From Limimaricola cinnabarinus LL-001 (GTDB lineage: Bacteria; Pseudomonadota; Alphaproteobacteria; Rhodobacterales; Rhodobacteraceae), in assembly GCF_000466965.1 (NCBI RefSeq), contig NZ_BATB01000004.1:62001-126000 (forward strand): 64,000 bases of DNA, given 5' to 3'. This document shows positions 8,446 to 27,298 of this stretch, in pieces; the stretch's first letter is position 1, and every line of letters begins with the position of its first letter. The notes below the pieces were generated by a model that had not been told where the DNA came from, did no database searches, and was given only the letters and a program-made list of their open reading frames with translations. Both the position numbers and the translations under genes were made by a program.

Positions 8446-8497
8446 TGGCGGACCCCCTTGAGTAAAATTCCGGATCATTCTACTCCTGATGAGCTAA

Positions 8498-8535
8498 GGC
8501 GCGTTTCCCGAAGATCGAAGGAAAACGCGCTTTTT
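8498..8535 (+). terminator. terminator-like hairpin in the putA-putR intergenic region
   Basis: GCGCGTTTCC (8499-8508) pairs with GGAAAACGCGC (8520-8530, one bulged A), followed directly by TTTTT (8531-8535). It lies between two divergent genes and ends 33 bp before the putR ATG, so it cannot terminate an upstream plus-strand gene. It could attenuate putR in its own leader, or be a chance or regulatory hairpin. Confidence 0.55.
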
Positions 8536-8568
8536 GCGTTGAATACTTCGCCAATCGCGGGACGAAAG

Positions 8569-9039
8569 ATGAGCAATTCCGACACTGGCAGCCATCTGGA
8601 CCGCACGGACTACCGCATTCTCGCCGAATTGGCAGCAAACGCTCGGCTTCCGGTCACCGAGCTTGCGATCCGGGTGGGGCTGTCGAAGAGCCCCTGCCAG
8701 GTGCGGCTGAAGCGGCTGCAGGAAAAGGGTGTGATTCGCGGGTTTCGAACGGTGATCGACCCGGCCAAGCTCGGGCTCGACCACGTTGCCTTCGTGGAGG
8801 TGCGGCTGGCCGACACGACCGAGAAATCGCTCAGCGCCTTCAACGCGGCCGTGCAGCTGATCACCGAGGTCGAGCAGTGCCACTTGATCGCGGGCAGCTT
8901 CGATTACCTGCTCAAGGTGCGCACCCGCGACATCCGCAGCTACCGCGAGGTGCTCGGCACCAAGATCTCGGCTCTGCCGGGGGTCGCAGGCACCTCCACC
9001 TATGTCTCGATGCAGCCGATCATCGACGACACGATGTGA
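8569..9039 (+). CDS. putR: Lrp/AsnC-family transcriptional regulator, proline-responsive PutR
   Basis: A 156-residue Lrp/AsnC protein. The N-terminal winged helix-turn-helix reads from DRTDYRILAELAANARL through LAIRVGLSKSPCQVRLKRL (about residues 10-55), and the C-terminal RAM ligand-binding domain includes GSFDYLLKVRTRD. The start is the ATG at 8569, which gives the canonical LDxxDxxIL beginning and is preceded by GACGAAAG. It is divergent from putA with a 123-bp intergenic region, the same arrangement as putR-putA in Rhodobacter capsulatus, where PutR activates putA in response to proline. Assignment as PutR is from family plus position. Confidence 0.9.
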   Translation: MSNSDTGSHLDRTDYRILAELAANARLPVTELAIRVGLSKSPCQVRLKRLQEKGVIRGFRTVIDPAKLGLDHVAFVEVRLADTTEKSLSAFNAAVQLITEVEQCHLIAGSFDYLLKVRTRDIRSYREVLGTKISALPGVAGTSTYVSMQPIIDDTM

Positions 9040-9050
9040 TCCTTTCCGAC

Positions 9051-9093
9051 CGCCGCGACGCCATGTAGTGCGCTTCCTATTCGCGTCGCGGCG
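9051..9093. repeat. 11-bp perfect inverted repeat downstream of putR
   Basis: CGCCGCGACGC (9051-9061) and GCGTCGCGGCG (9083-9093) are exact reverse complements with a 21-nt loop, starting 12 bp after the putR stop. No U tract follows, so it may be a Rho-linked or mRNA-stabilising 3' hairpin rather than an intrinsic terminator. Confidence 0.6.
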
Positions 9094-9189
9094 TGACGCG
9101 CCCTCACCATCCTGTCATCGCCGGGCACCGCGCTGGACGCCCCGGCGGCGCGGCGCGATGATGAAACGCCCCTTCAGAAAGCCGCCCAG

Positions 9190-9798
9190 ATGCTCGACGC
9201 CGCCGCCCGCCGCCTGATCGATCCGCCGCTCAACGCCATCGGCCGGGCCTTGGCGCGCGCGGGCGTCACAGCCGACGCGGTGACGCTGGCGGGACTGACG
9301 CTGGGTTTGGTGGCGGCAGCGATGATCGCACTGGATGCGCCGTTGTGGGCCCTGGGGCCGCTTCTGACGTCGCGGCTGGCCGACGGTCTCGACGGGGCGG
9401 TGGCGCGGGCGACCCGGCGCACCGATTGGGGCGGCTATCTCGACATCGCCGCCGATTTCGCCTTCTACGGTGCGATCCCGCTATCCTTCGTGCTGGCCGA
9501 TCCCGGCGGCAACGGTGCCGCGGGCGGATTTCTGCTTGCTGCCTTCTACTTCAACGGCACGACCTTTCTGGGCTACGCGGTCCTTGCCGAAAAGCGGGGT
9601 CTGCGGACCTCGGCGCAGGGGGTGAAATCGCTCTATTTCTCGAACGGGCTGCTCGAAGGCACCGAAACGATCGGCTTCTTCGTGGCGCTGTGCCTGCTGC
9701 CGGGCTGGTTCGCGCCGCTGGCCTGGATCTTCGGATCGCTGTGCTATCTGAGCGGCACCTTGCGACTGATCGGGGCCCGCAAGGCATTCCCGAGCTAG
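9190..9798 (+). CDS. CDP-alcohol phosphatidyltransferase family membrane protein
   Basis: A 202-residue integral membrane enzyme with several hydrophobic segments. The family motif is present as LADGLDGAVARATRRTDW followed by GGYLDIAAD (about residues 63-90), giving the conserved D..DG..AR...G...D...D metal-binding residues. It should transfer a phosphoalcohol onto or from a CDP-activated lipid or alcohol; the substrate cannot be read from the sequence. The spacing between AR and the following conserved G is seven residues, whereas the classical motif has eight (or the first of the two glycines shifts the register). The start has only a weak AGAAAG upstream. It precedes an epimerase and sugar transferase gene, which hints at envelope or polysaccharide work, though putR-side readthrough is possible. 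Confidence 0.82.
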   Translation: MLDAAARRLIDPPLNAIGRALARAGVTADAVTLAGLTLGLVAAAMIALDAPLWALGPLLTSRLADGLDGAVARATRRTDWGGYLDIAADFAFYGAIPLSFVLADPGGNGAAGGFLLAAFYFNGTTFLGYAVLAEKRGLRTSAQGVKSLYFSNGLLEGTETIGFFVALCLLPGWFAPLAWIFGSLCYLSGTLRLIGARKAFPS

Positions 9799-14533: not shown

Positions 14534-15532
14534 TTACTTCAGCGCTTCGTCGGTGATCCGGGAGGTCCATGCACCATCCGGTACCTGCGAGATCACCGGA
14601 TCCGAGCCCCCGGCAAGCAGCGTGTCGACCGTGCGCTGATAGGCGGCCTCGTCGAGGCTGCCGTCCGACCCCTCGGTCAGCTTGGCTATCTCGCCCATCA
14701 TCCGCACCTGATGCGCCTCTGTCTGCGCGCCGGTTTCATCATTGTCGAGCACGATCATCGCGGCCTCTTCGGGGTTCGTCTCCGCCCATTTCCACCCCTT
14801 CATCGAGGCGCGCACGAAGCGGGTCATCTTGTCGACGAACTCTGGGTCTTCGAGGTTCTCCTCAAGCACCCACATCCCGTCCTCGAGCGTGGCCACGCCC
14901 ATGTCCTCGTATTTGAAGGTAACGAGCTCGTCCTCGGAGATGCCCGCGTCGAGCACCTGGCCGTATTCGTTGTAGGTCATGGTCGAGATGCAGTCGGCCT
15001 GCCGCTGGATCAGCGGGTCGACGTTGAAGCCCTGCTTGAGAACCGTCACGCCCTCCTCGCCGCCCTCGGTCGGGATGCCCTCCTGGCTCATCCAGCTCAG
15101 GAACGGATATTCGTTGCCGAAGAACCAGACGCCGATGGTCTTGCCCTTGAAGTCCTGCGGTCCGGTGATGCCCGTGTCCTTCCAGCAGGTGAGCATCAGC
15201 CCCGAGCTGGCGAAGGGCTGGGCGATGTTCACCACCGGCAGCCCCTTTTCGCGCGCGGCCAGCGCCGAAGGCATCCAGTTGAGCATCACGTCGGCCCCAC
15301 CGCCGGCAAGCACCTGCGGAGGCGCGATGTCGGGGCCTCCGGGCAGGATCTCGACGTCGAGGCCTTCCTCCTCGTAGAACCCCTCCTCGAGCGCCACGTA
15401 GTAGCCCGCGAACTGCGCCTGCGTGACCCATTGCAGCTGCAGCCGGACCTCGTCGAGGTCCTGCGCCATGGCGGGCATCGTTCCCGCCATCAGCGCGCCT
15501 GCCGCTGCCGCGGCCATCATCATCCGTTTCAT
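14534..15532 (-). CDS. NMT1/THI5-like ABC transporter substrate-binding protein
   Basis: A 332-residue periplasmic protein with a clear signal peptide (MKRMMMAAAAAGALMAGTMP, cleavage after AMA-Q near residue 23). The mature start VRLQLQWVTQAQFAGYYVA and the later EEGLDVEILPGG are hallmarks of the NMT1/THI5-like family that binds pyrimidine-type and related heteroaromatic ligands. It is the last gene of a minus-strand set with two permeases and an ATPase, followed by a strong terminator. The surrounding reductive pyrimidine genes suggest a pyrimidine base or a related nucleobase/precursor as ligand; that is inference from context. Confidence 0.88.
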   Translation of the reverse strand: MKRMMMAAAAAGALMAGTMPAMAQDLDEVRLQLQWVTQAQFAGYYVALEEGFYEEEGLDVEILPGGPDIAPPQVLAGGGADVMLNWMPSALAAREKGLPVVNIAQPFASSGLMLTCWKDTGITGPQDFKGKTIGVWFFGNEYPFLSWMSQEGIPTEGGEEGVTVLKQGFNVDPLIQRQADCISTMTYNEYGQVLDAGISEDELVTFKYEDMGVATLEDGMWVLEENLEDPEFVDKMTRFVRASMKGWKWAETNPEEAAMIVLDNDETGAQTEAHQVRMMGEIAKLTEGSDGSLDEAAYQRTVDTLLAGGSDPVISQVPDGAWTSRITDEALK

Positions 15533-15583
15533 CCTAGTCGACCTCCGATTGCTGTTGATGGCCCGGTTCGCGGGCTCTGTAGG

Positions 15584-16429
15584 TTATCCGCGTTGCGAAG
15601 GATGCCAGAAGGTCACCCCCCGTTCGATAAGCGCCACCAGCCCGTAAAAGCCGGTGCCCGCCAGCGCCGCGACGAGGATCGCGGCCCAGACCATGTCGAG
15701 CGCGAGCTGCCCCACCGAGGTGGTGATCCGAAACCCGAGGCCCAGCGTCGGCGAGCCGAAGAACTCGGCCACGATGGCCCCGATCAGCGCCAGCGTGGTG
15801 CAGATCTTGAGCCCGTTGAAGATGAAGGGCATCGCCGCCGGAAGACGCAGCTTCACCAGCCCCGACCAGTAGCCCGCGCCCCAGCTTTTCATCAGGTCGC
15901 GCTGCATGGCAGAGGTCTCGGCGAGGCCCGCCACTGTGTTCACCAGCATCGGAAAGAACACCATGACCACCACCACGGCGGCCTTGGACTGCCAGTCGAA
16001 GCCGAACCACATCACCAGGATCGGCGCGGTGCCGACGATCGGCAGCGCGGCCATGAAGCTCGCCAGTGGCAGCAACCCGCGCTGCAGGAACACGAAACGG
16101 TCGACGGCGATCGCGGTGAGGAAGGCCGCCCCGCAGCCGATCGCATAGCCCGAGAGCGCGCCGCGCAGGATCGTCTGCACGAAATCACCCCAGAGCAGCG
16201 GCAGGCTTTCGGCGAAGCGCGCGCCGATCTGGCTCGGCGGCGGCAGGATGACCAGCGGCACCTGCAGCGCGCGCACCGCGATCTCCCACAGGATCAGGAT
16301 GGTGATCCCGAACAGCAGGGGCACCGCCATGCGGGCCCAGATCCGGTTCGACAGCGGTCCCGTGGCAAGCCAGACATTGAGCGCCCAGAGCCCGAGCCAC
16401 AGGGCCAGCGCGAGGATCGCCGCGCTCAT
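15584..16429 (-). CDS. ABC transporter permease (pyrimidine-associated importer), subunit 2
   Basis: A 281-residue membrane permease with about six to seven hydrophobic segments and the cytoplasmic EAA-type loop (LMKSWGAGYWSGLVKLRLPAA) that docks the ATPase. It belongs to the BPD_transp_1 family used by nitrate/taurine/NMT1-type importers. Its start overlaps the stop of the upstream permease by 4 bp (16426-16429), so the two are translationally coupled and probably form a heterodimer. The substrate-binding protein follows 51 bp later. Confidence 0.88.
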   Translation of the reverse strand: MSAAILALALWLGLWALNVWLATGPLSNRIWARMAVPLLFGITILILWEIAVRALQVPLVILPPPSQIGARFAESLPLLWGDFVQTILRGALSGYAIGCGAAFLTAIAVDRFVFLQRGLLPLASFMAALPIVGTAPILVMWFGFDWQSKAAVVVVMVFFPMLVNTVAGLAETSAMQRDLMKSWGAGYWSGLVKLRLPAAMPFIFNGLKICTTLALIGAIVAEFFGSPTLGLGFRITTSVGQLALDMVWAAILVAALAGTGFYGLVALIERGVTFWHPSQRG

Positions 16430-17373
16430 GCCGCCCCTCCCATGCGCCGCAACGCCAGCCGTTGTGCACCGCCGATTGCCGCGACGAGCCCGGCCGCCAG
16501 CGCCGCCGCCAGCAACAGCGCGGCCCAGATCTGCGCGGTCTGGCCATAATAGCTCCCCGCCAGCATCCGCGCGCCAAGCCCCCCGCCCTGCACCGGAAGC
16601 TCACCGACGATGGCACCAACGAGGGCGGCGGCCACCGCGATCTTCAGCGATGCGAAGAGATAGGGCATCGAGGCGGGCAGCCTCAGCCGCGTCAACACCT
16701 GCCAGCCGGAGGCGTCCCATGTGCGCATCAGGTCGGTCTGCATCGCGTCAGGCGCGCGCAGCCCCTTCACCATGCCGACCACCACCGGGAAGAAGGACAG
16801 ATAGGCAGAGATGATGGCCTTGGGCAGCAGCCCCTGCAGCCCGACCGAATAGAGCACCACGACAATCATCGGCGCCAGCGCCACGATCGGCACGGTCTGG
16901 CTGACGATGGCCCAAGGCATCACCGAACGTTCCATGGTGCGCGAATGGACGATGCCGACGGCCAGCAGGACCCCTGCCACGGTGCCGATGACAAAGCCCA
17001 GCGCGGTGGCCGACAAGGTGATCCAAACGTGCAGCAGGAGGCCGCGATTCGACAGGCTTCCGGATTTCAGCAGCCCGCGCTGCCCCTCGATCTCCTCCAT
17101 CACCACGCTCTGCCACAGCTCGCCCACGATCTGATGCGGCGCCGGCAGCCGGGGCCGGTCCTGCGCCCAAGCGGCCGGGATCTGCGCCAGGTTGGCCGCG
17201 ACCAGCCCCAGAGCGTTCGCGTCGCGCCGCTCGATCGCGGTGGCGGGTTCGACCACCACGCCGTTGCGCTCCGCGGCGCTGAGCGCCTCGCGGATGTTCA
17301 TCGGTACGGCGGCGGCGTACCACAACGCAAAGAGCGCCGCGACGAGCAGGAGGAGCGGTCCGTATCGGCTCAT
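16426..17373 (-). CDS. ABC transporter permease (pyrimidine-associated importer), subunit 1
   Basis: A 315-residue permease. An N-terminal membrane helix is followed by about 90 polar residues, predicted periplasmic, and then five or six membrane segments with the EAA-type loop (LMRTWDASGWQVLTRLRLPA). The long periplasmic insert distinguishes it from its partner at 15584-16429. It starts 218 bp downstream of the ATPase gene, an unusually large gap inside an operon, and that gap contains an opposite-direction terminator (see 17562-17590). The pair most likely forms the membrane channel for the NMT1-type binding protein. Confidence 0.86.
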   Translation of the reverse strand: MSRYGPLLLLVAALFALWYAAAVPMNIREALSAAERNGVVVEPATAIERRDANALGLVAANLAQIPAAWAQDRPRLPAPHQIVGELWQSVVMEEIEGQRGLLKSGSLSNRGLLLHVWITLSATALGFVIGTVAGVLLAVGIVHSRTMERSVMPWAIVSQTVPIVALAPMIVVVLYSVGLQGLLPKAIISAYLSFFPVVVGMVKGLRAPDAMQTDLMRTWDASGWQVLTRLRLPASMPYLFASLKIAVAAALVGAIVGELPVQGGGLGARMLAGSYYGQTAQIWAALLLAAALAAGLVAAIGGAQRLALRRMGGAA

Positions 17374-17561
17374 GCGCGCACCCGTGTGACTTCATTCCTC
17401 AAATACTCGAACCGCACCCTTTCACACCGGACCGCCGCCGGGACATCGGGACCGGTTCGACACGAGTGTTGTAAGAGTAAAGTAATCATCAGCTGCTTTC
17501 CTGAGCGCACGGTACAGGCTGGAGGGCCGATGACCGTGTGTGAAGTCACCCCGCCAAGGGT

Positions 17562-17590
17562 CCCTCGGCCCGTGTGGCCGGGGGGCTTTT
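17562..17590 (+). terminator. Rho-independent terminator on the plus strand with no plus-strand gene upstream
   Basis: CCCTCGGCC (17562-17570), loop CGTGT, and GGCCGGGGG (17576-17584) form a 9-bp stem with one G-U pair, followed by GCTTTT. It reads on the plus strand, opposite to the flanking ABC genes, at the very 3' end of the ATPase gene. It may end a small RNA or antisense transcript from 17374-17560. Confidence 0.6.
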
Positions 17591-17591
17591 C

Positions 17592-18392
17592 CTAGTGCTC
17601 GGCATGACCGGCCCTAAGCCCCTCGCGCACCCGATGCGCGATCTCGATGAATTCGGGGCTGTCGCGAATCTCGAGCGGACGCTCGCGCGGCAGCGGGCTG
17701 TCGATCACATCGGTGATCCGGCCGGGACGCGGGCTCATCACCACGATCTTCGTGGAGAGATATACCGCCTCGGGGATTGAGTGGGTCACGAAGAGCGTGG
17801 TCTTGCCGGTCGCGGCCCAGAGCCTGAGAAGTTCCTCGTTGAGCCGGTCGCGCACGATCTCGTCGAGCGCGCCGAAGGGTTCGTCCATGAGCAGGATCTC
17901 GGCATCGAAGGCCAGCGCGCGGGCGATGCTCGCGCGCTGCTGCATGCCGCCCGACAGCTGCCAGGGATACTTCTTTTCGAAGCCGCTCAGTTCCACCAAC
18001 TGCATCACCTCGCGCACCCGCCGCGTCCGCTCGGCGCGATCGAAACCCATGATCTCGAGCGGTAGCGCGATGTTGCCGCCGATCGTGCGCCATGGATAGA
18101 GCCCCGCTGCTTGGAATACATAGCCATATGCGCGCGCACGCCGGGCCTCGTCCGGGGTCATGCCGTTGACCGACACCGTTCCCGCCGTCGGCGTCTCCAG
18201 CGCGGCGACCACCCGCAGGAAGGTGGTTTTGCCGCAGCCCGAAGGCCCGATGAAGGAGACGAATTCGCCCTTGCCGATGTCGAGATCCACGCTCCTGAGC
18301 GCATGCACCGACCCGTCATTGGTGTCGAAGGTGAGGTCGACGCCGCGCGCCGAGATGACGGTCTGGGGGATCGGCGCGTTCATCATCGGCAC
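17592..18392 (-). CDS. ABC transporter ATP-binding protein (nitrate/taurine/NMT1-type importer)
   Basis: A 266-residue ATPase with Walker A GPSGCGKTT (about 50-58), a Q-loop segment (GYVFQAAGLYPW), signature LSGGMQQR, Walker B ILLMDEPFGALD and a switch His (VTHSIPEA). It energises the importer formed by the two permeases downstream. The gene begins 19 bp after the dihydropyrimidinase stop, linking import directly to pyrimidine breakdown. MPMMNAP offers two nearby ATGs; the first is annotated. Confidence 0.93.
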   Translation of the reverse strand: MPMMNAPIPQTVISARGVDLTFDTNDGSVHALRSVDLDIGKGEFVSFIGPSGCGKTTFLRVVAALETPTAGTVSVNGMTPDEARRARAYGYVFQAAGLYPWRTIGGNIALPLEIMGFDRAERTRRVREVMQLVELSGFEKKYPWQLSGGMQQRASIARALAFDAEILLMDEPFGALDEIVRDRLNEELLRLWAATGKTTLFVTHSIPEAVYLSTKIVVMSPRPGRITDVIDSPLPRERPLEIRDSPEFIEIAHRVREGLRAGHAEH

Positions 18393-18411: not shown

Positions 18412-19869
18412 TCACACCCCGCTCGCCGGGATGCCCGAACGTTCGACCGGGCGCGGCGCGGTCAGCGCCTTCCACGAGGACAGCGCGCGGTTCACCGGGC
18501 CCTGTGATTCACGCGCGACGAATGCGCCGTGGCCCTCATGCGCATCCAGCGCGCCGTCGCGCAGCGAGACATGACCGCGGCTCAATACATAGCGCGGCAG
18601 GCCCTTGACCCGCTGGCCCTCGAAGACGTTGTAGTCGATCGCCGAGGCCTGCATCGAAGCTGTGATGGCCTTTTCCTTCTGCGGATCCCACACGACAATG
18701 TCGGCATCGGCTCCGACGAGGATCGCGCCCTTCTTCGGGTAGCAGCCGAGGATCTTGGCGCTGTTGGTCGAGGTGACGGCCACGAACTCGTTCATGGTGA
18801 TCCGGCCGGTGTTCACGCCATGCGTCCACAGAAGCGGCATCCGGTCCTCGAGCCCGCCGGTGCCGTTGGGGATCTTGGTGAAGTCACCCACGCCGTTGCG
18901 CTTCTGCTCGGTGGTGAAGGCGCAGTGATCGGTGGCCACGACCGAGAGCGTGCCCGAGGCGAGACCGGCCCAGAGGCTGTCTTGATGCTTCTTGTCGCGG
19001 AAGGGCGGGCTCATCACCCGGCGCGCGGCGTGGTCCCAATCGGGGTGGGCGTATTCGCCCTCGTCGAGAATCAGGTGCTGAATCAGCGGTTCGCCCCAGA
19101 CCCGCTTGCCGTTCATCTTGGCCCGCCGGATCGCCTCGTGCGCTTCCTCGCAGGAGACGTGCACGACATAGAGCGGGACGCCTGCCATATCGGCGATCAT
19201 GATCGCCCGATTGGTCGCCTCGCCCTCGACGGATGAGGGTCGCGAATAGGCATGCGCCTCGGGGCCGGTGTTGCCCTCGGCCAGAAGCTTGGCCTGCAAC
19301 TCGGCCACCACGTCGCCGTTCTCGGCATGCACCATCGGGATCGCCCCCAGCTCTGCGCAGCGGCGGAAGCTCGCGAAGAGCTCGTCATCATTGACCATCA
19401 AGGCACCCTTGTAGGCCATGAAATGCTTGAAGGTGGTGATGCCGTGGTCGCGCACCACAGCCTCCATCTCGTCGAAGACCTGCCGATCCCACCAGGTGAT
19501 CGCCATGTGGTAGGAGTAGTCGCAGGCCGCCTGCCCCGACTTGTTGTGCCAGACCTTCAGCGCGTCGAGCAGGCTCTGACCGGGGCTCGGCAGGGCGAAA
19601 TCGACCACCATCGTCGTGCCACCCGCCAGTGCCGCGCGGGTGCCCGAGCCGAAATCATCCGTGGAATGGGTGCCCATGAAGGGCATCTCCAGATGCGTGT
19701 GCGGGTCGATGCCGCCGGGCATCACGTAGCAGCCCGTCGCATCGAGCGTCTCGTCTCCCGCGAGCCCCTTGCCGATCGCGGCGATGCGACCGCCCTCGAT
19801 CAGCAGGTCCGCCTCGTAGGTCAGATCCGCCGTGACGATCGTGCCGTTCCTGATGACCGTGGAGCCCAT
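18412..19869 (-). CDS. hydA: dihydropyrimidinase
   Basis: A 485-residue cyclic amidohydrolase that opens dihydrouracil or dihydrothymine to the N-carbamoyl-beta-amino acid, the second step of the reductive pyrimidine pathway. The binuclear metal site is visible: His57 and His59 in DPHTHLE, Lys154 in FMAYKG (the carboxylated Lys), His181 in VHAENGD, His237 in VVHVSC and Asp314 in ATDHCAF. The start has AGAGAGGG about 5 bp upstream. Neighbours supply the first (PreTA) and third (M20 hydrolase) steps. The name pydB is used in some genomes for the same role. Confidence 0.94.
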   Translation of the reverse strand: MGSTVIRNGTIVTADLTYEADLLIEGGRIAAIGKGLAGDETLDATGCYVMPGGIDPHTHLEMPFMGTHSTDDFGSGTRAALAGGTTMVVDFALPSPGQSLLDALKVWHNKSGQAACDYSYHMAITWWDRQVFDEMEAVVRDHGITTFKHFMAYKGALMVNDDELFASFRRCAELGAIPMVHAENGDVVAELQAKLLAEGNTGPEAHAYSRPSSVEGEATNRAIMIADMAGVPLYVVHVSCEEAHEAIRRAKMNGKRVWGEPLIQHLILDEGEYAHPDWDHAARRVMSPPFRDKKHQDSLWAGLASGTLSVVATDHCAFTTEQKRNGVGDFTKIPNGTGGLEDRMPLLWTHGVNTGRITMNEFVAVTSTNSAKILGCYPKKGAILVGADADIVVWDPQKEKAITASMQASAIDYNVFEGQRVKGLPRYVLSRGHVSLRDGALDAHEGHGAFVARESQGPVNRALSSWKALTAPRPVERSGIPASGV

Positions 19870-20591: not shown

Positions 20592-21841
20592 TCACGATAC
20601 CACTTCCGCCGCCTCGATCACCGCGTGCAAAAGCACATCGGTGCCCTTGGTGGCCCAGTCCTGCGTGATGTCCTCGGCCTCATTGTGGCTCAGCCCGTCC
20701 TTGCAGGGACACATCACCATCGCCGTGGGCGCGACGCCTGCGACCCAGCAGGCGTCGTGCCCCGCGCCAGAGACGATGTCGCGATGCGCATGGCCCAGCC
20801 GCTCGGCGGCGGCGCGCACCATGGCGACGCACTCCGGATCGAAGGTGACGGGATCGAAATGGCCCACCGGCTCGATCTCGATCCCAAGACCCAGTTCCCG
20901 AGCGATCCGCTCGGCCTCGGCCTCGACCGCCGCGCGCATCGCGTCGAGCTTGGCCTGTTCAGGCGAGCGGATGTCGACGGTGAACACCGCGCGGCCGGGG
21001 ATCACGTTGCGCGAGTTGGGCCAGACATTGGCCTGTCCCACGGCCCCCACCGCGTCGGGCTGGTGCTCCATGGCGATGCGGTGCACGGCCTCGGTGATCC
21101 GCGCCATGCCGAGCCCGGCATTGACGCGCATGTGCATCGGCGTGGAGCCTGTATGGCTCTCCTTGCCGGTGAGTCGGATCTCCAGCCACCACAGCCCCTG
21201 CCCATGAGTGACGACGCCGATCTCCTTGCTCTCGGCTTCGAGGATCGGCCCCTGCTCGATATGCAGCTCGAACAGCGCATGCATCCGCCGTGCGCCGACC
21301 TCCTCATTGCCCTTCCAGCCGATCCGCTCAAGCTCGTCGCCAAAACGCTTTCCCTCCGCGTCCTCGCGCGCATAGGCCCAGTCGAGATCGTGTTGCCCGG
21401 CATGGACGCCAGAGGCCAGCATCGCGGGAGCGAAACGCGTGCCCTCCTCGTTGGTCCAGTTCACCACGACGATCGGACGGCGGGTTTCGATGGCCATGTC
21501 GTCGAGCGTACGGATGATCTCCAGACCACCGAGCACGCCGAGCACACCGTCATACTTGCCGCCCGTCGGCTGGGTGTCGAGATGCGAGCCCACATAGACC
21601 GGCAGCGCATCAGGGTCCCGCCCCTCGCGCCGCGCGAACATCGACCCCATGGCATCGACGCCCATCGACATTCCCGAAGCCGCGCACCACTCTGCGAACA
21701 ACTTGCGCCCTTCGGCATCAGCATCGGTGAGGCTTGGCGGTTGTTGCCGCCCGCCACGCCGGGGCCGATGCGGGCCATCTCCATCAGGCTGCTCCAGAGC
21801 CGCGCGCCGTCGATCCTGAGGTTCTCACCGGGTGCGGACAT
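20592..21841 (-). pseudogene. M20-family N-carbamoyl-beta-amino acid hydrolase (beta-ureidopropionase type), one 1-nt deletion
   Basis: The restored protein is about 416 residues. It starts MSAPGENLRIDGARLWSSLM and reaches GVAGGNNRQ, where the frame breaks near 21731; adding one C (CAAGCCCTC) gives NNRQALTDADAEGRKLFAEW and continues in the main frame to 20592. Visible motifs are VYVGSHLDTQPTGGKYDG (metal His/Asp), NWTNEEGTRF (catalytic Glu pair), LHIEQGP and SGAGHDACW, typical of Zn-dependent carbamoyl-amino-acid hydrolases such as allantoate amidohydrolase and beta-ureidopropionase. In this pyrimidine cluster the third pathway step, N-carbamoyl-beta-alanine to beta-alanine, CO2 and ammonia, is the best fit. 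It is divergent from rutR. Confidence 0.87.
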
Positions 21842-21892: not shown

Positions 21893-21908
21893 TTGACCAC
21901 CCGGTAAA
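21893..21908. promoter_or_regulatory. RutR-type operator, site 1
   Basis: TTGACCA-CC-CGGTAAA is an imperfect palindrome closely resembling the RutR box known from Escherichia coli (TTGACCA-NN-TGGTCAA). The left half is identical and the right half matches 5 of 7. It lies between the divergent M20 hydrolase gene and rutR. A matching element occurs at 25817-25832. Confidence 0.65.
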
Positions 21909-22029
21909 ATTCACGCTATCAAAGTCCCGAAACCAGTCAAGGATCGCGTGCCCTTCGCCTCGCATCGATTACGAAACGCTGCGAAACGGGGCGGCGCCGG
22001 GTCGGGTTGCCCGTTCCACAGGACCATAC

Positions 22030-22653
22030 ATGACCGACAACCCCCCGCGCACGCGCATACAGGCCCGCAACAGGGCCACCATTCTCGAAGCGGCCTTGGA
22101 GGTCTTCGCCTCGCGCGGGTTTCGCGGCGCGACGCTCGACCGGATCGCGCAGACGGCCGGCCTGTCCAAACCCAACCTGCTCTACTATTTCCGCTCCAAG
22201 GAGGCGCTGCACCTCGCGATCCTCGAGGATTTGATGGATTTGTGGCTGGCACCCCTGCGCGAAATGGACCCGGAGGGCGAGCCGCGCGAGGAGATCCTGC
22301 GGTACATGCGGCGCAAGCTCGACATGAGCCGCCATCACCCACGCGAAAGCCGGCTCTTCGCCAACGAGATCCTGCAAGGCGCGCCGCGCGCGCGTCCCGT
22401 GATCGAGGGTGAGCTGAAATCATTGGTCGACGAGAAGGCCGCGGTGATCGCAGCGTGGTCGGAAACAGGCCGGATCGGGCCGGTCGATCCCCATCACCTG
22501 ATTTTCTCGGTCTGGGCGCTGACGCAGCATTATGCCGATTTCGACGTGCAGGTGCGCACCATCATGGGCGGCACCGATCCCTATCCCGCCGCCGAAGCCT
22601 GGCTCGAGCGGGTCATGGGCGCGGTGCTGGAACTGCCGCGCGCGGCGCCCTGA
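22030..22653 (+). CDS. rutR: TetR-family pyrimidine regulator RutR
   Basis: A 207-residue TetR protein. The N-terminal helix-turn-helix reads NRATILEAALEVFASRGFRG through LDRIAQTAGLSKPNLLYYFRSKEAL (about residues 14-60), and the C-terminal domain has the YcdC/RutR-type sequence with FANEILQGAP and IFSVWALTQHYADFDVQV. RutR binds uracil (and thymine in Escherichia coli) and derepresses pyrimidine degradation. It is divergent from the M20 hydrolase and next to preA, and two RutR-like boxes flank the cluster. An AGGA lies 6 bp before the ATG at 22030. Confidence 0.9.
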   Translation: MTDNPPRTRIQARNRATILEAALEVFASRGFRGATLDRIAQTAGLSKPNLLYYFRSKEALHLAILEDLMDLWLAPLREMDPEGEPREEILRYMRRKLDMSRHHPRESRLFANEILQGAPRARPVIEGELKSLVDEKAAVIAAWSETGRIGPVDPHHLIFSVWALTQHYADFDVQVRTIMGGTDPYPAAEAWLERVMGAVLELPRAAP

Positions 22654-22733
22654 TCCGTTGCCCCATTCTCGCAGGCGCCTTGCCCGCGCCCCGGCGGGGT
22701 GCCCCATGCCGCGCATGATGGACAGCGACGGCC

Positions 22734-24038
22734 CTACTCGGCCGCCTGTGCCATCGGGTTGTTGGGGTGGGTGGTCCAATCGGCGTGATCGGGCGAGACG
22801 ACCCGGCCGGTGCGCGGATCGACGCTGCCCGCCGACATCGGCACCATGTCGATGCAGTTCTCCACCGGACAGACATCGACGCACAGGTTGCAGGCCACGC
22901 ATTCCGCGTCGATCACCTCGAACATTCGGTCCGGCGTCATAGCGATCGCCTGATGGCTGGTGTCCTCGCAGGCGGCATAGCAGCGGCCGCACTTGATGCA
23001 GAGATCCTGATCGATCTTCGCCTTGGCGACGTAGTTGAGGTTGAGGTTCTTCCAATCGGTGACGTTGAGCACGGCCTTTCCGACGAAATCGGCGGTCGAG
23101 CGGTAGCCCTTCTCGTCCATCCAGTCCGACAGCCCCGCGCACATCTCCTCGACGATGCGAAAGCCATAGGTCATGGCGGCGGTGCAGACCTGCACGTTGC
23201 CCGCGCCCAGCACCATGAACTCGGCCGCGTCGCGCCATGTGGTGACACCGCCAATGCCCGAGATCGGCATCCCGCGCGTCGCCTCGTGCCGCGCGATCTC
23301 GGAGACCATCGACAGCGCGATCGGCTTGACCGCCGGGCCGCAATAGCCGCCATGGCTGCCCTTGCCGTCGATCGAGGGCTCGGGGCTGAAACTGTCGAGA
23401 TTGACGCTGGTGATCGAGTTGATCGTGTTGATCAGGCTCACCGCGTCGGCCCCACCGCGCCGCGCCGCCTCGGCGGGCTTGCGCACATCGGTGATGTTCG
23501 GCGTCAGCTTCACGATGACGGGCCGGTCGTAATACTGCTTGCACCAGCGCGCGACCATCTCGATGTATTCGGGGACCTGCCCGACCGCCGCGCCCATGCC
23601 GCGTTCGCTCATGCCATGCGGACAGCCGAAGTTGAGCTCGATGCCGTCCGCGTTCGTTTCCTCGACCCGTGGCAGAATCGCCTTCCACGCCGCCTCTTCG
23701 CAGGGCACCATGATCGAGGCGATCAGGGCCCGGTCGGGATAGTCGGCCTTGACCCGCGCCATCTCCTCGAGATTGGTCTCGAGGTCGCGGTCGGTGATCA
23801 GCTCGATGTTGTTGAGGCCCAGAAGCCGCCGATCGGCGCCGTAGATGGCGCCGTAGCGCGGGCCGTTGACGTTGACCACCGGCGGCCCCTCGGCCCCGAG
23901 GGTCTTCCAGACCACCCCGCCCCAACCGGCCTCGAAGGCACGGCGGACGTTGTATTCCTTGTCCGTAGGCGGCGCCGAGGCGAGCCAGAACGGGTTGGGG
24001 CTCTCGATGCCCAGGAACCGGGTGGTCAGGTCGGCCAT
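22734..24038 (-). CDS. preA: NAD-dependent dihydropyrimidine dehydrogenase subunit PreA
   Basis: A 434-residue subunit that reduces uracil/thymine to dihydropyrimidines with electrons from PreT. The N-terminal part is a dihydroorotate-dehydrogenase-like FMN barrel, with FLGIESPNPFWLASAPPTDK at the start, NFGCPHGMSERGMG near the expected active-site loop, and VKLTPNITD. The C-terminal part is a ferredoxin-like domain with two 4Fe-4S motifs, CIKCGRCYAACED and CVACNLCVDVCPVENC. The start has GGATGATGAG directly upstream. It lies 4 bp after the VOC gene and is the 3' end of the preT-VOC-preA operon. Confidence 0.95.
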   Translation of the reverse strand: MADLTTRFLGIESPNPFWLASAPPTDKEYNVRRAFEAGWGGVVWKTLGAEGPPVVNVNGPRYGAIYGADRRLLGLNNIELITDRDLETNLEEMARVKADYPDRALIASIMVPCEEAAWKAILPRVEETNADGIELNFGCPHGMSERGMGAAVGQVPEYIEMVARWCKQYYDRPVIVKLTPNITDVRKPAEAARRGGADAVSLINTINSITSVNLDSFSPEPSIDGKGSHGGYCGPAVKPIALSMVSEIARHEATRGMPISGIGGVTTWRDAAEFMVLGAGNVQVCTAAMTYGFRIVEEMCAGLSDWMDEKGYRSTADFVGKAVLNVTDWKNLNLNYVAKAKIDQDLCIKCGRCYAACEDTSHQAIAMTPDRMFEVIDAECVACNLCVDVCPVENCIDMVPMSAGSVDPRTGRVVSPDHADWTTHPNNPMAQAAE

Positions 24039-24042
24039 CTCA

Positions 24043-24429
24043 TCATCCTTCCGGTGGTGTGGCGTGTATCACGACGGTGTTGCCCTCGCTGTCGAGGAAC
24101 ATCGCGAAGCGCTCGGTATCGCTCCAGGGAAGCTCGGTGGGGTTCATCAGAAAGCGCACCCCCTCGCCCTTCAAACGCTCGGTCTCGGCATCGACATCGG
24201 CGCATTCCAGATAGAGCGCCGGCACCTCCTCGGAGTAGCGGACCTCCTGGCGGCGCGCGAACTGGATCTTGGTCTGGGTGTCGGGCAGCTTCATCATGAT
24301 CATGCGCCAGTCGTCGTCGAGATCGGCGTCGAGCGCGACCTCCATGCCGATCCTGTCGCGGTAGAAGGCCAGCGCGCGGTCCTGATCGTCGACCGGAAGC
24401 GGCAGAATGAAAATGCCCGTGAATGCCAT
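24043..24429 (-). CDS. VOC (glyoxalase/bleomycin-resistance fold) family protein
   Basis: A 128-residue single VOC domain. It opens MAFTGIFILPLPVDDQDRAL, the usual beta-alpha-beta beginning, and ends MFLDSEGNTVVIHATP with the family's D.EGN motif. It has 4-bp gaps to both preT and preA, so it is firmly inside the operon. No enzyme of the reductive pyrimidine pathway is known to me that needs a VOC protein, so it may handle a toxic side product or a modified ligand; that is a guess. The function is not assigned. Confidence 0.85.
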   Translation of the reverse strand: MAFTGIFILPLPVDDQDRALAFYRDRIGMEVALDADLDDDWRMIMMKLPDTQTKIQFARRQEVRYSEEVPALYLECADVDAETERLKGEGVRFLMNPTELPWSDTERFAMFLDSEGNTVVIHATPPEG

Positions 24430-24433
24430 TTTA

Positions 24434-25762
24434 TTAATCCGTCAGTGTGCCGTGAATGTCTTCGGCGGCATCCCGACCCTGCGCCACAGCCGTAACGGTC
24501 AGGTCGTCGCCCCCCACCCCACAGTCTCCACCGGCCCAGACCTTGTCCATATCGGTGCGTCCACTACCCTGCGTCACAACTTTTCCACGTACGGTTTTCA
24601 ACCCGCTCGCGTCGCCGAGGCGTTGACCAACGGCACGGAACATCTGATCCGCCGGCAGGGTGAAACGGTCGCCGGTGGGCGCCAGCCCCTCGGATCCCTC
24701 GCCCATCCGCTCGAACACCACGCCGCTCAGACGTCCCTCACCCTCGACCGCCACGGGCGCGGCTTCGAAGATCAGCCGGACGCCGCGCTGCGCGGCGAGA
24801 TCCTGCTCGAACCGGCTCGCGCCCATGCGCTCCCGCGCGCGGCGATAGACCAGCGTCACGGTCTCGGCCCCCAGCCCCTTGGCCTGCACCGCGCAGTCGA
24901 TCGCCGTCATGCCGCCACCGATCACCACCACGTCGCGGCCGATCGGCAGCGTCGAGAGATCCTCGCACTGGCGCAGCGCCGAGATGAAGGTGACGGCGTC
25001 GTGCATCCCCTCGACCTTAGGGCCATCGAGGCCCAGCGCGTTGACGCCCGACAGGCCGATACCAAGGAACACCGCGTCATATTCGTCCCGAAGCGTCTCC
25101 AGCGTGATCTCGCCTCCGAGCCATTGGCCGTGGCGCAGTTCGATGCCGCCGATCTCCATGATCCATGCCGCCTCGCGCGCCGCGAACTCATCGACCGACT
25201 TGTAGGCGGCGATGCCGTATTCGTTGAGCCCGCCGGGTTTCGGCGCACCCTCGAAGATCACCACGTCATGCCCGTGCCGCGCCAGCCGGTGCGCGCAGGA
25301 CAGCCCCGCGGGGCCCGCCCCCACCACCGCCACGCGCTTGCCGGTGCGGGCTGCGCGGGTGAAGGGATGGCCCTGCCGCGCCATCAGGCTGTCCGTGGCG
25401 TGGCGTTGCAACAGCCCGATCTGCACCGGCTTGCCCTCGGCGGCCTCGCGGACGCAGGCGCCCTCGCAGAGCACCTCGGTCGGGCAGACCCGGGCGCACA
25501 TGCCACCCAGAATGTTCGCCTCGAAAATCTCGCGCGCCGCAGTTTCCGGGCGCCCGGCCTGAATCTCGCGGATGAAGAGCGGGATGTCGATCTCGGTGGG
25601 ACAGGCGGTGACGCAAGGCGCATCATGGCAGAAATAGCAGCGATCCGCGGCCACCCGCGCCTCGTGCGCGCTCAGCGGCGAGTGCAGGTCCGCGAAGTTC
25701 CGTGCCAGCGTATCGGCAGGCAAGCGACCGGCGACCGGTCCGGTCTGTGGCTGGGCAGGCAT
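24434..25762 (-). CDS. preT: NAD(P)-dependent dihydropyrimidine dehydrogenase subunit PreT
   Basis: A 442-residue flavoprotein that passes electrons from NAD(P)H to PreA. The N-terminal iron-sulfur part has RCYFCHDAPCVTACPTEIDI and CARVCPTEVLCEGACV. Next come the FAD motif VAVVGAGPAGLSCA (about 144-157) and the NAD(P) motif VVVIGGGMTAID (about 271-282), and GGDCGVGGDDL near the C-terminus is the second FAD contact. This is the glutamate-synthase-small-subunit-like architecture of PreT. A GGGGGAC lies upstream of the ATG. It leads the preT-VOC-preA operon and faces the aminotransferase gene across a 156-bp divergent region containing a RutR-like box. Confidence 0.95.
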   Translation of the reverse strand: MPAQPQTGPVAGRLPADTLARNFADLHSPLSAHEARVAADRCYFCHDAPCVTACPTEIDIPLFIREIQAGRPETAAREIFEANILGGMCARVCPTEVLCEGACVREAAEGKPVQIGLLQRHATDSLMARQGHPFTRAARTGKRVAVVGAGPAGLSCAHRLARHGHDVVIFEGAPKPGGLNEYGIAAYKSVDEFAAREAAWIMEIGGIELRHGQWLGGEITLETLRDEYDAVFLGIGLSGVNALGLDGPKVEGMHDAVTFISALRQCEDLSTLPIGRDVVVIGGGMTAIDCAVQAKGLGAETVTLVYRRARERMGASRFEQDLAAQRGVRLIFEAAPVAVEGEGRLSGVVFERMGEGSEGLAPTGDRFTLPADQMFRAVGQRLGDASGLKTVRGKVVTQGSGRTDMDKVWAGGDCGVGGDDLTVTAVAQGRDAAEDIHGTLTD

Positions 25763-25816
25763 GTGGCGTCCCCCGTGGCGGCATTCCGTTTCCCCGAGCC
25801 TGACACGGTTTCATTT

Positions 25817-25832
25817 TTTATCAAACGGTAAA
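25817..25832. promoter_or_regulatory. RutR-type operator, site 2
   Basis: TTTATCA-AA-CGGTAAA shares the exact right half (CGGTAAA) and the half-site spacing with site 1 at 21893-21908. It lies in the 156-bp region between divergent preT and the class III aminotransferase gene and probably controls both. Confidence 0.58.
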
Positions 25833-25918
25833 TTTTGTGCGATCCGCGAATCCGGTTTTCCTTGACCGCCGGCAGGCGCCGCGCAGAGTGGGGGCGACAT
25901 CCCCCAGCGAGGCCCGCC

Positions 25919-27298
25919 ATGGAAGACCTGATGCACAACGACCCCGCCCGCGTCATCGAGGCCGACCGGGCCCATGTCTGGCACCACATGATCCAGCACC
26001 GTGCGCTGGAGACCACCGATCCGCGCATCATCGTCGAGGGGCGCGGCATGCGGGTGTGGGACATCACCGGCAAGGAGCATCTCGACGCTGTTTCGGGCGG
26101 CGTGTGGACTGTCAATGTCGGCTACGGGCGGACGCGCATCGCCGACGCGGTGCGCGAGCAGTTGGTGAAGATGTGCTACTTCGCGGGCGCGCAGGGCTCG
26201 GTGCCCGGCGCACGTTTCGCCGAGGCGCTGATCGGAAAGATGCCGGGGCTTTCCCGCGTCTACTTCGCCAATTCCGGCTCGGAGGCCAACGAGAAAGCCT
26301 TCAAGATGGTGCGCCAGATCAGCCACAAGCACCACGGCGGTCGCAAGTCGAAGATCCTCTACCGCGAGCGCGATTACCACGGCACCACCATCGCCTGCCT
26401 CTCGGCAGGCGGACAATTGGAACGTAACGCGCAATACGGCCCGTTTGTTCCTGAATTCGTGATGGTGCCGCATTGCCTCGAATACCGCGCGCAGGACGGG
26501 CTCGCGGGCGAGGAATACGGGGTCCGGGCCGCCGAGGCGATCGAGGAGGTGATCCTGCGCGAGGGTCCCGATACGGTGGGCGCGCTGTGCCTCGAGCCGA
26601 TCACGGCGGGCGGTGGCATCATCGTGCCGCCCAAGGGCTATTGGGAGAAGGTGCAGGAGATCTGCCGCAAATACGACATCCTGCTGCATATCGACGAGGT
26701 GGTCTGCGGCATGGGGCGCACCGGCACGTGGTTCGGCTACCAGCAGTTCGGGGTGCAGCCCGACATCGTCACCATGGCCAAGGGCGTGGCCTCTGGTTAT
26801 GCCGCGATCTCGTGCTGCGTCACCACCGAGGCCGTGTTCGAGAGGTTCAAGGACGCCTCGGATCCGATGGCGCATTTCCGCGACATCTCGACCTTCGGCG
26901 GCTGCACCTCCGGCCCCGTCGCGGCGCTGGAGAACCTCGCGATCCTCGAGGAGGAGAACCTGCTCGAAAACTCGACCCGCATGGGGGCCTACCTGCATGA
27001 CGGGCTGTCGGCGTTGATGGATAAGCACGCGCTGATCGGCGACGTGCGCGGCATGGGGCTTTTCGCCGGGGCCGAGCTGGTGGTGGATCGAGACACGCGC
27101 GAGCCCGCGTCCGAAAAGCTGGTGCAGGCGGTCGTGGCCGACTGCCTCAAGCAAGGCGTGATCATCGGTGCCACCAACCGTTCGGTCCCGGGCTTCAACA
27201 ACGTGCTCCTGTTCGCGCCCGCGCTGATCGCCGGGAAGGCCGCGATCGACGAGATCCTCGGCGCGGTGGATGGCGCACTGGGCCGGGCCGCAGGCTAG
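25919..27298 (+). CDS. class III omega-aminotransferase, taurine-pyruvate / beta-alanine type
   Basis: A 459-residue PLP enzyme. The N-terminal region (WHHMIQHRALETTDPRIIVE and AVSGGVWTVNVGYGR) is very close to taurine-pyruvate aminotransferases. SGSEANEKAFKM is the phosphate-contact motif, DEVVCGMGRTG the PLP-ring Asp region, and TMAKGVASGYA carries the Schiff-base Lys288. As it faces preT under a shared RutR-like site, beta-alanine (or 3-aminoisobutyrate) to the semialdehyde is the likely physiological reaction, with taurine the alternative. ATG 25919 is preferred over 25931; both are preceded by weak sites. Confidence 0.88.
   Translation: MEDLMHNDPARVIEADRAHVWHHMIQHRALETTDPRIIVEGRGMRVWDITGKEHLDAVSGGVWTVNVGYGRTRIADAVREQLVKMCYFAGAQGSVPGARFAEALIGKMPGLSRVYFANSGSEANEKAFKMVRQISHKHHGGRKSKILYRERDYHGTTIACLSAGGQLERNAQYGPFVPEFVMVPHCLEYRAQDGLAGEEYGVRAAEAIEEVILREGPDTVGALCLEPITAGGGIIVPPKGYWEKVQEICRKYDILLHIDEVVCGMGRTGTWFGYQQFGVQPDIVTMAKGVASGYAAISCCVTTEAVFERFKDASDPMAHFRDISTFGGCTSGPVAALENLAILEEENLLENSTRMGAYLHDGLSALMDKHALIGDVRGMGLFAGAELVVDRDTREPASEKLVQAVVADCLKQGVIIGATNRSVPGFNNVLLFAPALIAGKAAIDEILGAVDGALGRAAG

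Follow-up and report, generated by a model that had tools for sequence, protein, structure and literature searches.

Two RutR-type boxes as predicted operators of the reductive pyrimidine genes in Limimaricola cinnabarinus LL-001 and its relatives

The 64,000-nucleotide stretch of contig NZ_BATB01000004.1 of Limimaricola cinnabarinus LL-001 analysed here (the window) codes for a RutR-like regulator next to genes for the uptake and reductive breakdown of pyrimidines, which raises the question of whether this regulator governs them and through which sites. Two related boxes are found at this locus of the genome (G000; 3.9 Mb in 192 contigs, 94.8% complete). They are in all likelihood the operators of the adjacent RutR-like TetR repressor, which would be released by uracil or thymine and would control pyrimidine uptake and reductive breakdown. 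Conservation, co-occurrence with the regulator gene and promoter anatomy give good support to the prediction that preT-preA and the M20 operon are under RutR-type control; that the protein binds and represses, which ligand it responds to, where transcription starts and which genes are co-transcribed we infer from sequence.

Both boxes are 16 bp long and have the right half CGGTAAA in common, in the same register. Box 1 (21893..21908, no strand assigned), a RutR-type operator of class A that reads TTGACCACCCGGTAAA, separates the M20 operon from rutR; it stands upstream of both start codons, by about 50 bp for the M20 hydrolase (ATG at 21841, minus strand) and by about 120 bp for rutR (ATG at 22030). 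Box 2 (25817..25832, no strand assigned), the class B operator of preT, reads TTTACCGTTTGATAAA on the minus strand and likewise precedes two start codons, that of preT (25762, minus strand) by about 55 bp and that of a divergent aminotransferase gene (25919) by about 87 bp. The sequence confirms what an earlier note on this DNA had described, namely the positions of the two boxes, their shared right half and spacing and their location in both divergent promoter regions. The Escherichia coli RutR operator is a palindrome of about 16 bp with the consensus TTGACCAnnTGGTCAA. Box 1 matches 12 of 14 positions of this consensus, in line with the closeness to the E. coli box claimed in that note, and box 2 matches 10 of 14.

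The heptamer CGGTAAA occurs six times in the window against 1.14 expected, so that on its own it says little. Searched genome-wide, a pattern built from both sites is matched perfectly twice and never with a single mismatch; when two mismatches are allowed it gives 23 matches as compared with 32 for the reversed pattern (reversed patterns or reversed sequences were the noise control throughout), and these looser matches are thus noise. The generalised box TTKAYCRNNYGRTMAA matches only these same two places in 3.9 Mb, with no match in the reversed control. Each box deviates from the consensus, which, together with the frequent heptamer, could suggest that they are alike by chance. This is hardly credible and is refuted by the comparative data: only two places match genome-wide and both positions are conserved in relatives. 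It is from the relatives that the weight of the evidence for the boxes comes.

Eighty loci were chosen by RutR similarity, several of which end early at contig ends; those closest to the window are from genomes named Limimaricola, with RutR identities of 88, 81 and 80%. A palindromic mixture model run on the rutR upstream regions of 77 loci (the 80 minus the three nearest) yielded de novo the motif TTGACCAatTGGTCAA at width 16 and an unchanged core at widths 18 and 20; the motif is present in about 56% of the sequences and equals the E. coli RutR box. Sites with at most two mismatches to the consensus are present in 38 of 80 rutR and 48 of 64 M20 upstream regions, and in none of the reversed ones. 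Upstream of preT (n = 82; the RutR loci and 30 further loci, the window's own included) a related sequence is found near -70, with three mismatches or fewer in 48 cases, four in 32 and five in 2, whereas the reversed sequences give none at up to three mismatches and four at four. The motif search in related genomes that the earlier note had suggested finds the boxes conserved upstream of rutR, M20 and preT. Loci with both boxes include those of Histidinibacterium aquaticum (L034) and Limimaricola pyoseonensis (L011).

The preT boxes form a second class, class B (TTTACCRnTTGATAAA), which differs from class A at 3–4 of 14 positions. Across a family survey of 198 genomes, the window's own included, exact class B (TTTACCRNTTGATAAA) has 131 matches in 130 genomes, against 11 in the reversed control, and 116 of them lie 67–121 bp before preT on the same strand. 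Six others were confirmed before preT in fetched stretches, one precedes a partial preT and four are elsewhere; the place relative to preT was left unchecked in G169, G189 and G197, and the stretch fetched from G033 has no preT. The G033 match, inside the reading frame of another gene, and the one in G159, before an unidentified small protein, have an unclear link to pyrimidines and may be due to chance. A small class B variant stands at preT in G023 (TTTACCTCTTGATAAA), while the preT boxes of G094 and G109 (TTGACCATTTGATAAA), G018 (TTGACCAAGCGGTAAA), G106 (TTGACCATCCGGTAAA) and G128 (TTGACCACGCGGTCAA) grade into class A, such that hybrids and one pure class A box occupy the preT position in some genomes.

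The presence of the box at preT follows that of the regulator gene. PreT was called at E < 1e-100 (164 of 198 genomes) and RutR at E < 1e-30, with at most 15 first-look candidates scored per genome and a few unscored in the negatives G063, G125 and G162; preT boxes were scanned for as the generalised box within 250 bp. A box with at most one mismatch is found at preT in 145 of 149 RutR-positive and 6 of 13 RutR-negative family genomes (Fisher P 9.7e-7, a value that is only a guide and overstates, as do the Fisher values in general, because the genomes share ancestry). The 145 comprise 117 exact and placed boxes, 3 exact boxes whose place was left unchecked and 25 from the generalised-box scan, which covered 38 rows and gave in reversed sequences no hit at 0–1 mismatch and two at two mismatches. 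The 29 RutR-positive genomes that do not have exact class B at preT divide into 25 with a box at 0–1 mismatch, three with a two-mismatch box and one with none. Two further RutR-negative genomes (G147, G157), in which the gene start is missing, were left out of the count. Outside the family, the class sample with PreT at E <= 1e-120 holds 28 genomes, 27 of which were examined (G226 has no locus). There the preT box is present at up to one mismatch in 15 of 22 RutR-positive and none of 5 RutR-negative genomes, and at up to two mismatches in 18 of 22 and none of 5; the reversed controls have none at one mismatch and one at two. Ten of the 15 outside-family boxes end in the class A half GGTCAA.

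Several observations weigh against control by RutR through both boxes. Among the RutR-positive family genomes G059 has no preT box, and G083, G105 and G144 have only two-mismatch boxes; outside the family a box is absent from 4 of 22 and present only with two mismatches in 3 of 22. Conversely, G167, rated 100% complete, carries an exact class B box before preT (L176, 7219–7234) and has no RutR match, G063 has a one-mismatch preT box without RutR, and exact boxes without RutR are found in G028, G118, G156 and G181, genomes 84–86% complete. When the judged RutR-negative genomes at least 90% complete are considered, 2 of 8 (G063, G167) have a box. These six RutR-less genomes with boxes are the genuine exceptions, which could be accounted for by a recent loss of the regulator or by gaps in the sequence. 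Furthermore, 42 of 80 rutR upstream regions have no site at up to two mismatches, and exact class A (TTGACCANNYGGTCAA), present in 79 of 198 genomes, suffers from more noise than class B, with 29 matches in the reversed control. In near relatives the right half of box 2 is changed (TTTACCGTTTGGAAAA in L009, TTTACCGTTTGGGAAA in L010) and the best box 1 match of L010 has five mismatches, which shows that the boxes are not fixed even among close relatives. The identical right half is not general either, site 1 of the near relative L011 being TTGACCAGTCGGTCAA. As to the G167 box, it could belong to another regulator or be left from a recent loss of RutR.

The surroundings of the boxes were then read as promoters from column conservation. 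A clear class A box precedes rutR in 44 of 80 loci; aligned on it, these have on the rutR side TTGACC in the box and CTAnCA 17 bp further on, and on the opposite strand CTTGACTG followed after 16 bp by TGnTAGCGT, with an expected start point inside the box. These promoter-like elements are retained in the window. The predicted rutR -35 (TTGACC, 21893..21898, plus strand) lies inside box 1 and its -10 (CTATCA, 21916..21921, plus strand) follows a 17-bp spacer; the divergent M20 operon would have its -35 at 21935..21940 (TTGACT, minus strand) and its -10 at 21913..21918 (TAGCGT, preceded by TGA, minus strand), the latter sharing bases with the rutR -10 and placing the expected start in box 1. 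At preT, the alignment of exact class B stretches (94 unique of 103, with box columns fixed by the selection of the stretches) has TTGATA within the right half and a TG-extended CAGgCT 16 bp on. The corresponding window elements are a putative -35 inside box 2 (TTGATA, 25819..25824, minus strand) and a TG-extended putative -10 after a 16-bp spacer (CAGGCT, 25797..25802, minus strand). For the conserved TGTGGCAGGCT ahead of preT a sigma-54 promoter was considered and dropped, since inspection showed no matching -12 element and TTGATA with a TG-extended -10 16 bp away is the better fit.

This anatomy bears on the main competitor of the proposed model, in which RutR would act on box 1 only, for autoregulation and for the M20 operon, and box 2 would be the site of another regulator or a conserved promoter segment. 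The difference between the two classes, the -35 within class B and the class B-like box kept in the 6 of 13 RutR-less genomes speak in its favor. However, the left half TTTACC, which lies ahead of the -35, is no promoter element: it precedes TTGATA in 74 of the 77 preT upstream regions of the main set that have TTGATA, and it is gone in the RutR-less, boxless genomes G014, G058 and G085, where the preT -10 remains visible by eye (in the other four of the seven such genomes judged, G029, G125, G146 and G162, the promoter was not made out by eye). Hybrids and a full class A box stand at the same preT position, as in G018 and G128, and preT boxes track RutR in two samples, within and outside the family. 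Restriction of RutR to box 1 is therefore improbable. In our reading, the repressor probably accounts for the conservation of the left half of class B, and the right half is conserved for the polymerase as well. In this family the preT operator could be a promoter-operator composite, in which selection for the -35 (TTGATA) fixed an asymmetric class distinct from the symmetric autoregulatory one, and one repressor reading two grades of site would free its own gene and that of the first enzyme at unequal uracil concentrations; this extension is speculative, with the odds somewhat against it.

The protein expected to bind these sites is encoded at 22030..22653 (plus strand) and is, from profile, structure and residue comparison, a predicted RutR-like repressor of the TetR family. 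TetR_N (PF00440) and the YcdC-like TetR_C_3 (PF08362) both score above their gathering scores, the domain pair of RutR/PydR-like TetR proteins. Against the NCBIfam RutR equivalog TIGR03613 it reaches 236 bits, below the cut-off of 368, though no other protein of the genome comes near it (next 43.8 bits); in a PDB comparison E. coli RutR (3loc) scores 191.7 bits and the next TetR protein other than RutR 55.5 bits. The five uracil contacts W77, Y97, W167, Q171 and Q179 and the DNA-contact lysines K52 and K62 given for E. coli RutR in PMC10891134 are all conserved in the window protein and in each of the 80 loci. We regard the regulator as RutR-like and not as a member of the RutR equivalog because the equivalog score is below cut-off, yet it is the best match of the genome, the PDB match is clear and the contact residues are conserved.

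The neighbours of the regulator gene are preT, preA, the M20 gene and the dihydropyrimidinase gene, not rutABCDEFG. No RutA is found over the cut-off in the genome (best 58.1 bits versus 498.3) and only 3 of 198 family genomes have one, which makes the reductive route the plausible target; control of the Rut oxidative pathway was discarded as there is no RutA over cut-off in this genome. RutR, M20, dihydropyrimidinase, PreA and PreT are found together in 45 of 80 loci, and with the ATPase of an importer in 44 of 80.

According to the proposed model, in cells without pyrimidine a RutR-like dimer would occupy both boxes. On box 1 it would cover the rutR -35 and the start point of the M20/dihydropyrimidinase/importer operon, and on box 2 the -35 ahead of the preT-glyoxalase-preA operon. 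The bound dimer would block RNA polymerase. Uracil (or thymine) would bind the repressor and cause its release, switching on uptake and reductive breakdown.

The operon behind box 2 starts with preT (24434..25762, minus strand), coding a GltD-like NAD(P)-binding subunit named by its place beside preA, for which no NCBIfam model is above its own cut-off among the matches listed. A small glyoxalase-fold protein, assigned by domain search (24043..24429, minus strand), is followed by the dihydropyrimidine dehydrogenase subunit PreA (22734..24038, minus strand; NF006183, 713.6 bits, cut-off 335). Among the 80 RutR loci the glyoxalase-fold protein was matched at E <= 1e-10 in L009–L011 only. Upstream regions of preA, which correspond to preT coding sequence or the preT-preA gap, show 4 sites at three and 25 at four mismatches in 78 cases, against 0 and 3 in the reversed control; these weak class A-like matches are probably conserved coding sequence.

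The first gene of the divergent operon codes for an M20-family amidase of the hydantoinase/carbamoylase type (20592..21841, minus strand; TIGR01879, 363.6 bits, cut-off 204), to which the context would assign the beta-ureidopropionase step. Its reading frame is broken near the 5' end (21701–21841, minus strand) by comparison with L009, L010, L011 and L013; the break is either a young lesion or an assembly error, and relatives have intact copies. Next among the minus-strand genes, ahead of the dihydropyrimidinase and importer genes, is that of a small protein with no Pfam match. Downstream of M20 follow the dihydropyrimidinase (18412..19869, minus strand; TIGR02033, 607.9 bits, cut-off 393.25) and an ABC importer made of an ATPase, a permease, a second permease-like reading frame and an NMT1-type binding protein (14534..18392, minus strand; from searches and relatives), the second permease-like frame (15584–16429, minus strand) being known from the list of open reading frames only. 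Separate boxes at up to two mismatches are absent from 57 dihydropyrimidinase (HydA), 57 ATPase, 50 binding protein and 55 first-permease upstream regions; at three mismatches there are 0, 1, 2 and 0 sites, with none in reversed controls, and at four 7, 6, 7 and 6 against 2, 2, 2 and 3. As these genes have no box of their own in relatives, they would come under RutR only via the M20 promoter, that is, only if co-transcribed from it. The possible inclusion of the importer in the regulon, raised in the earlier note, is to be kept in this conditional form.

That note had also included the divergent class III aminotransferase (25919..27298, plus strand; from domain search and loci comparison), whose regulon membership is uncertain. 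It might join the regulon via box 2 and dispose of beta-alanine. Box 2 indeed lies in the intergenic region shared by this gene and preT, and does so in altered form in L009 and L010; G097 has an aminotransferase homologue, 71.7% identical, that is preceded by an exact class B box of its own, and a -10-like sequence can be made out there by eye. Divergent from rutR in L012 is an omega-aminotransferase of the AptA type (8463–9791; 768 bits, cut-off 500). It is the only one examined among the other class III aminotransferases (28–32% identity) present in 17 of 80 RutR loci; class III aminotransferases in RutR loci plausibly serve beta-alanine disposal. On the other hand, the window gene carries, past box 2 and not overlapped by it, its own promoter-like TTGACC-N16-CAGAGT at 25862–25889 (by eye), with a similar sequence in L009 and L010 (by eye). 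The L011 aminotransferase is about 3 kb from the box and itself has none. Homologues number 144 matches in 141 genomes; in the 30 loci fetched, which do not include G097, a box at up to one mismatch is found only at the window's own gene (L196 has a two-mismatch one), and the box was rejected as a general feature of the aminotransferase. Its membership in the regulon is accordingly weak and rather unlikely.

In L178 (G101, 1568–1583) and L180 (G141, 1593–1608), too, exact class B is found, immediately before genes for binding proteins that have an ABC ATPase gene as neighbour. The G141 protein matches Bmp/PnrA in a domain search and the G101 protein was judged alike by eye; these may be parts of an importer for nucleosides or nucleobases that the same repressor controls. 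These boxes are nearer to the start codon than at preT, so a composite promoter is not evident there. Among the boxes of identical sequence at the Bmp/PnrA-type importer gene (G141; probably G101) and at the aminotransferase gene (G097), the -35/-10 spacing is kept only in G097 (by eye).

E. coli RutR is the closest solved structure to the regulator, with the same 16-bp operator consensus and conserved ligand residues. It differs in its targets: E. coli RutR controls, through a 16-bp palindromic operator, the oxidative rutA-G operon and carAB (PMC10891134), while the present genome has no RutA over cut-off. For pyrimidine catabolism, the RegPrecise collection (PMC5343134) predicts RutR regulons in 68 proteobacterial genomes from 13 taxonomic groups, and the motif changes from taxon to taxon; in the part of that source considered here neither preT/preA nor a Rhodobacterales RutR motif is named, and no mention was found of two operator classes or of a -35 inside one. 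A search of the open-access literature found no experimental RutR study in this family. Pseudomonas putida, unlike this alphaproteobacterial family, is a gammaproteobacterium. Its PydR (Hidese et al. 2012, cited in PMC7332683) is reported to be a RutR-like repressor of the dihydropyrimidine dehydrogenase gene; the regulator described here would resemble it in having this reductive-pathway gene as target. Because PydR and the predicted proteobacterial RutR regulons precede it, the link is of a known kind: the extension of RutR to the reductive pathway proposed in the earlier note is well supported for preT-preA and the M20 operon, though its framing as a departure is not right.

The circuit is very probably real and widely conserved, of a kind already known; its less familiar detail is a preT operator class containing a -35. 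For the reductive uracil pathway, the analysis offers a predicted sensor with its operators and promoters, in a large family where RutA reached its cut-off in only 3 of 198 genomes. It would also provide a case of an operator reshaped by an overlapping promoter, and points to a possible regulation by pyrimidines of a Bmp/PnrA-type importer in one genome or two.

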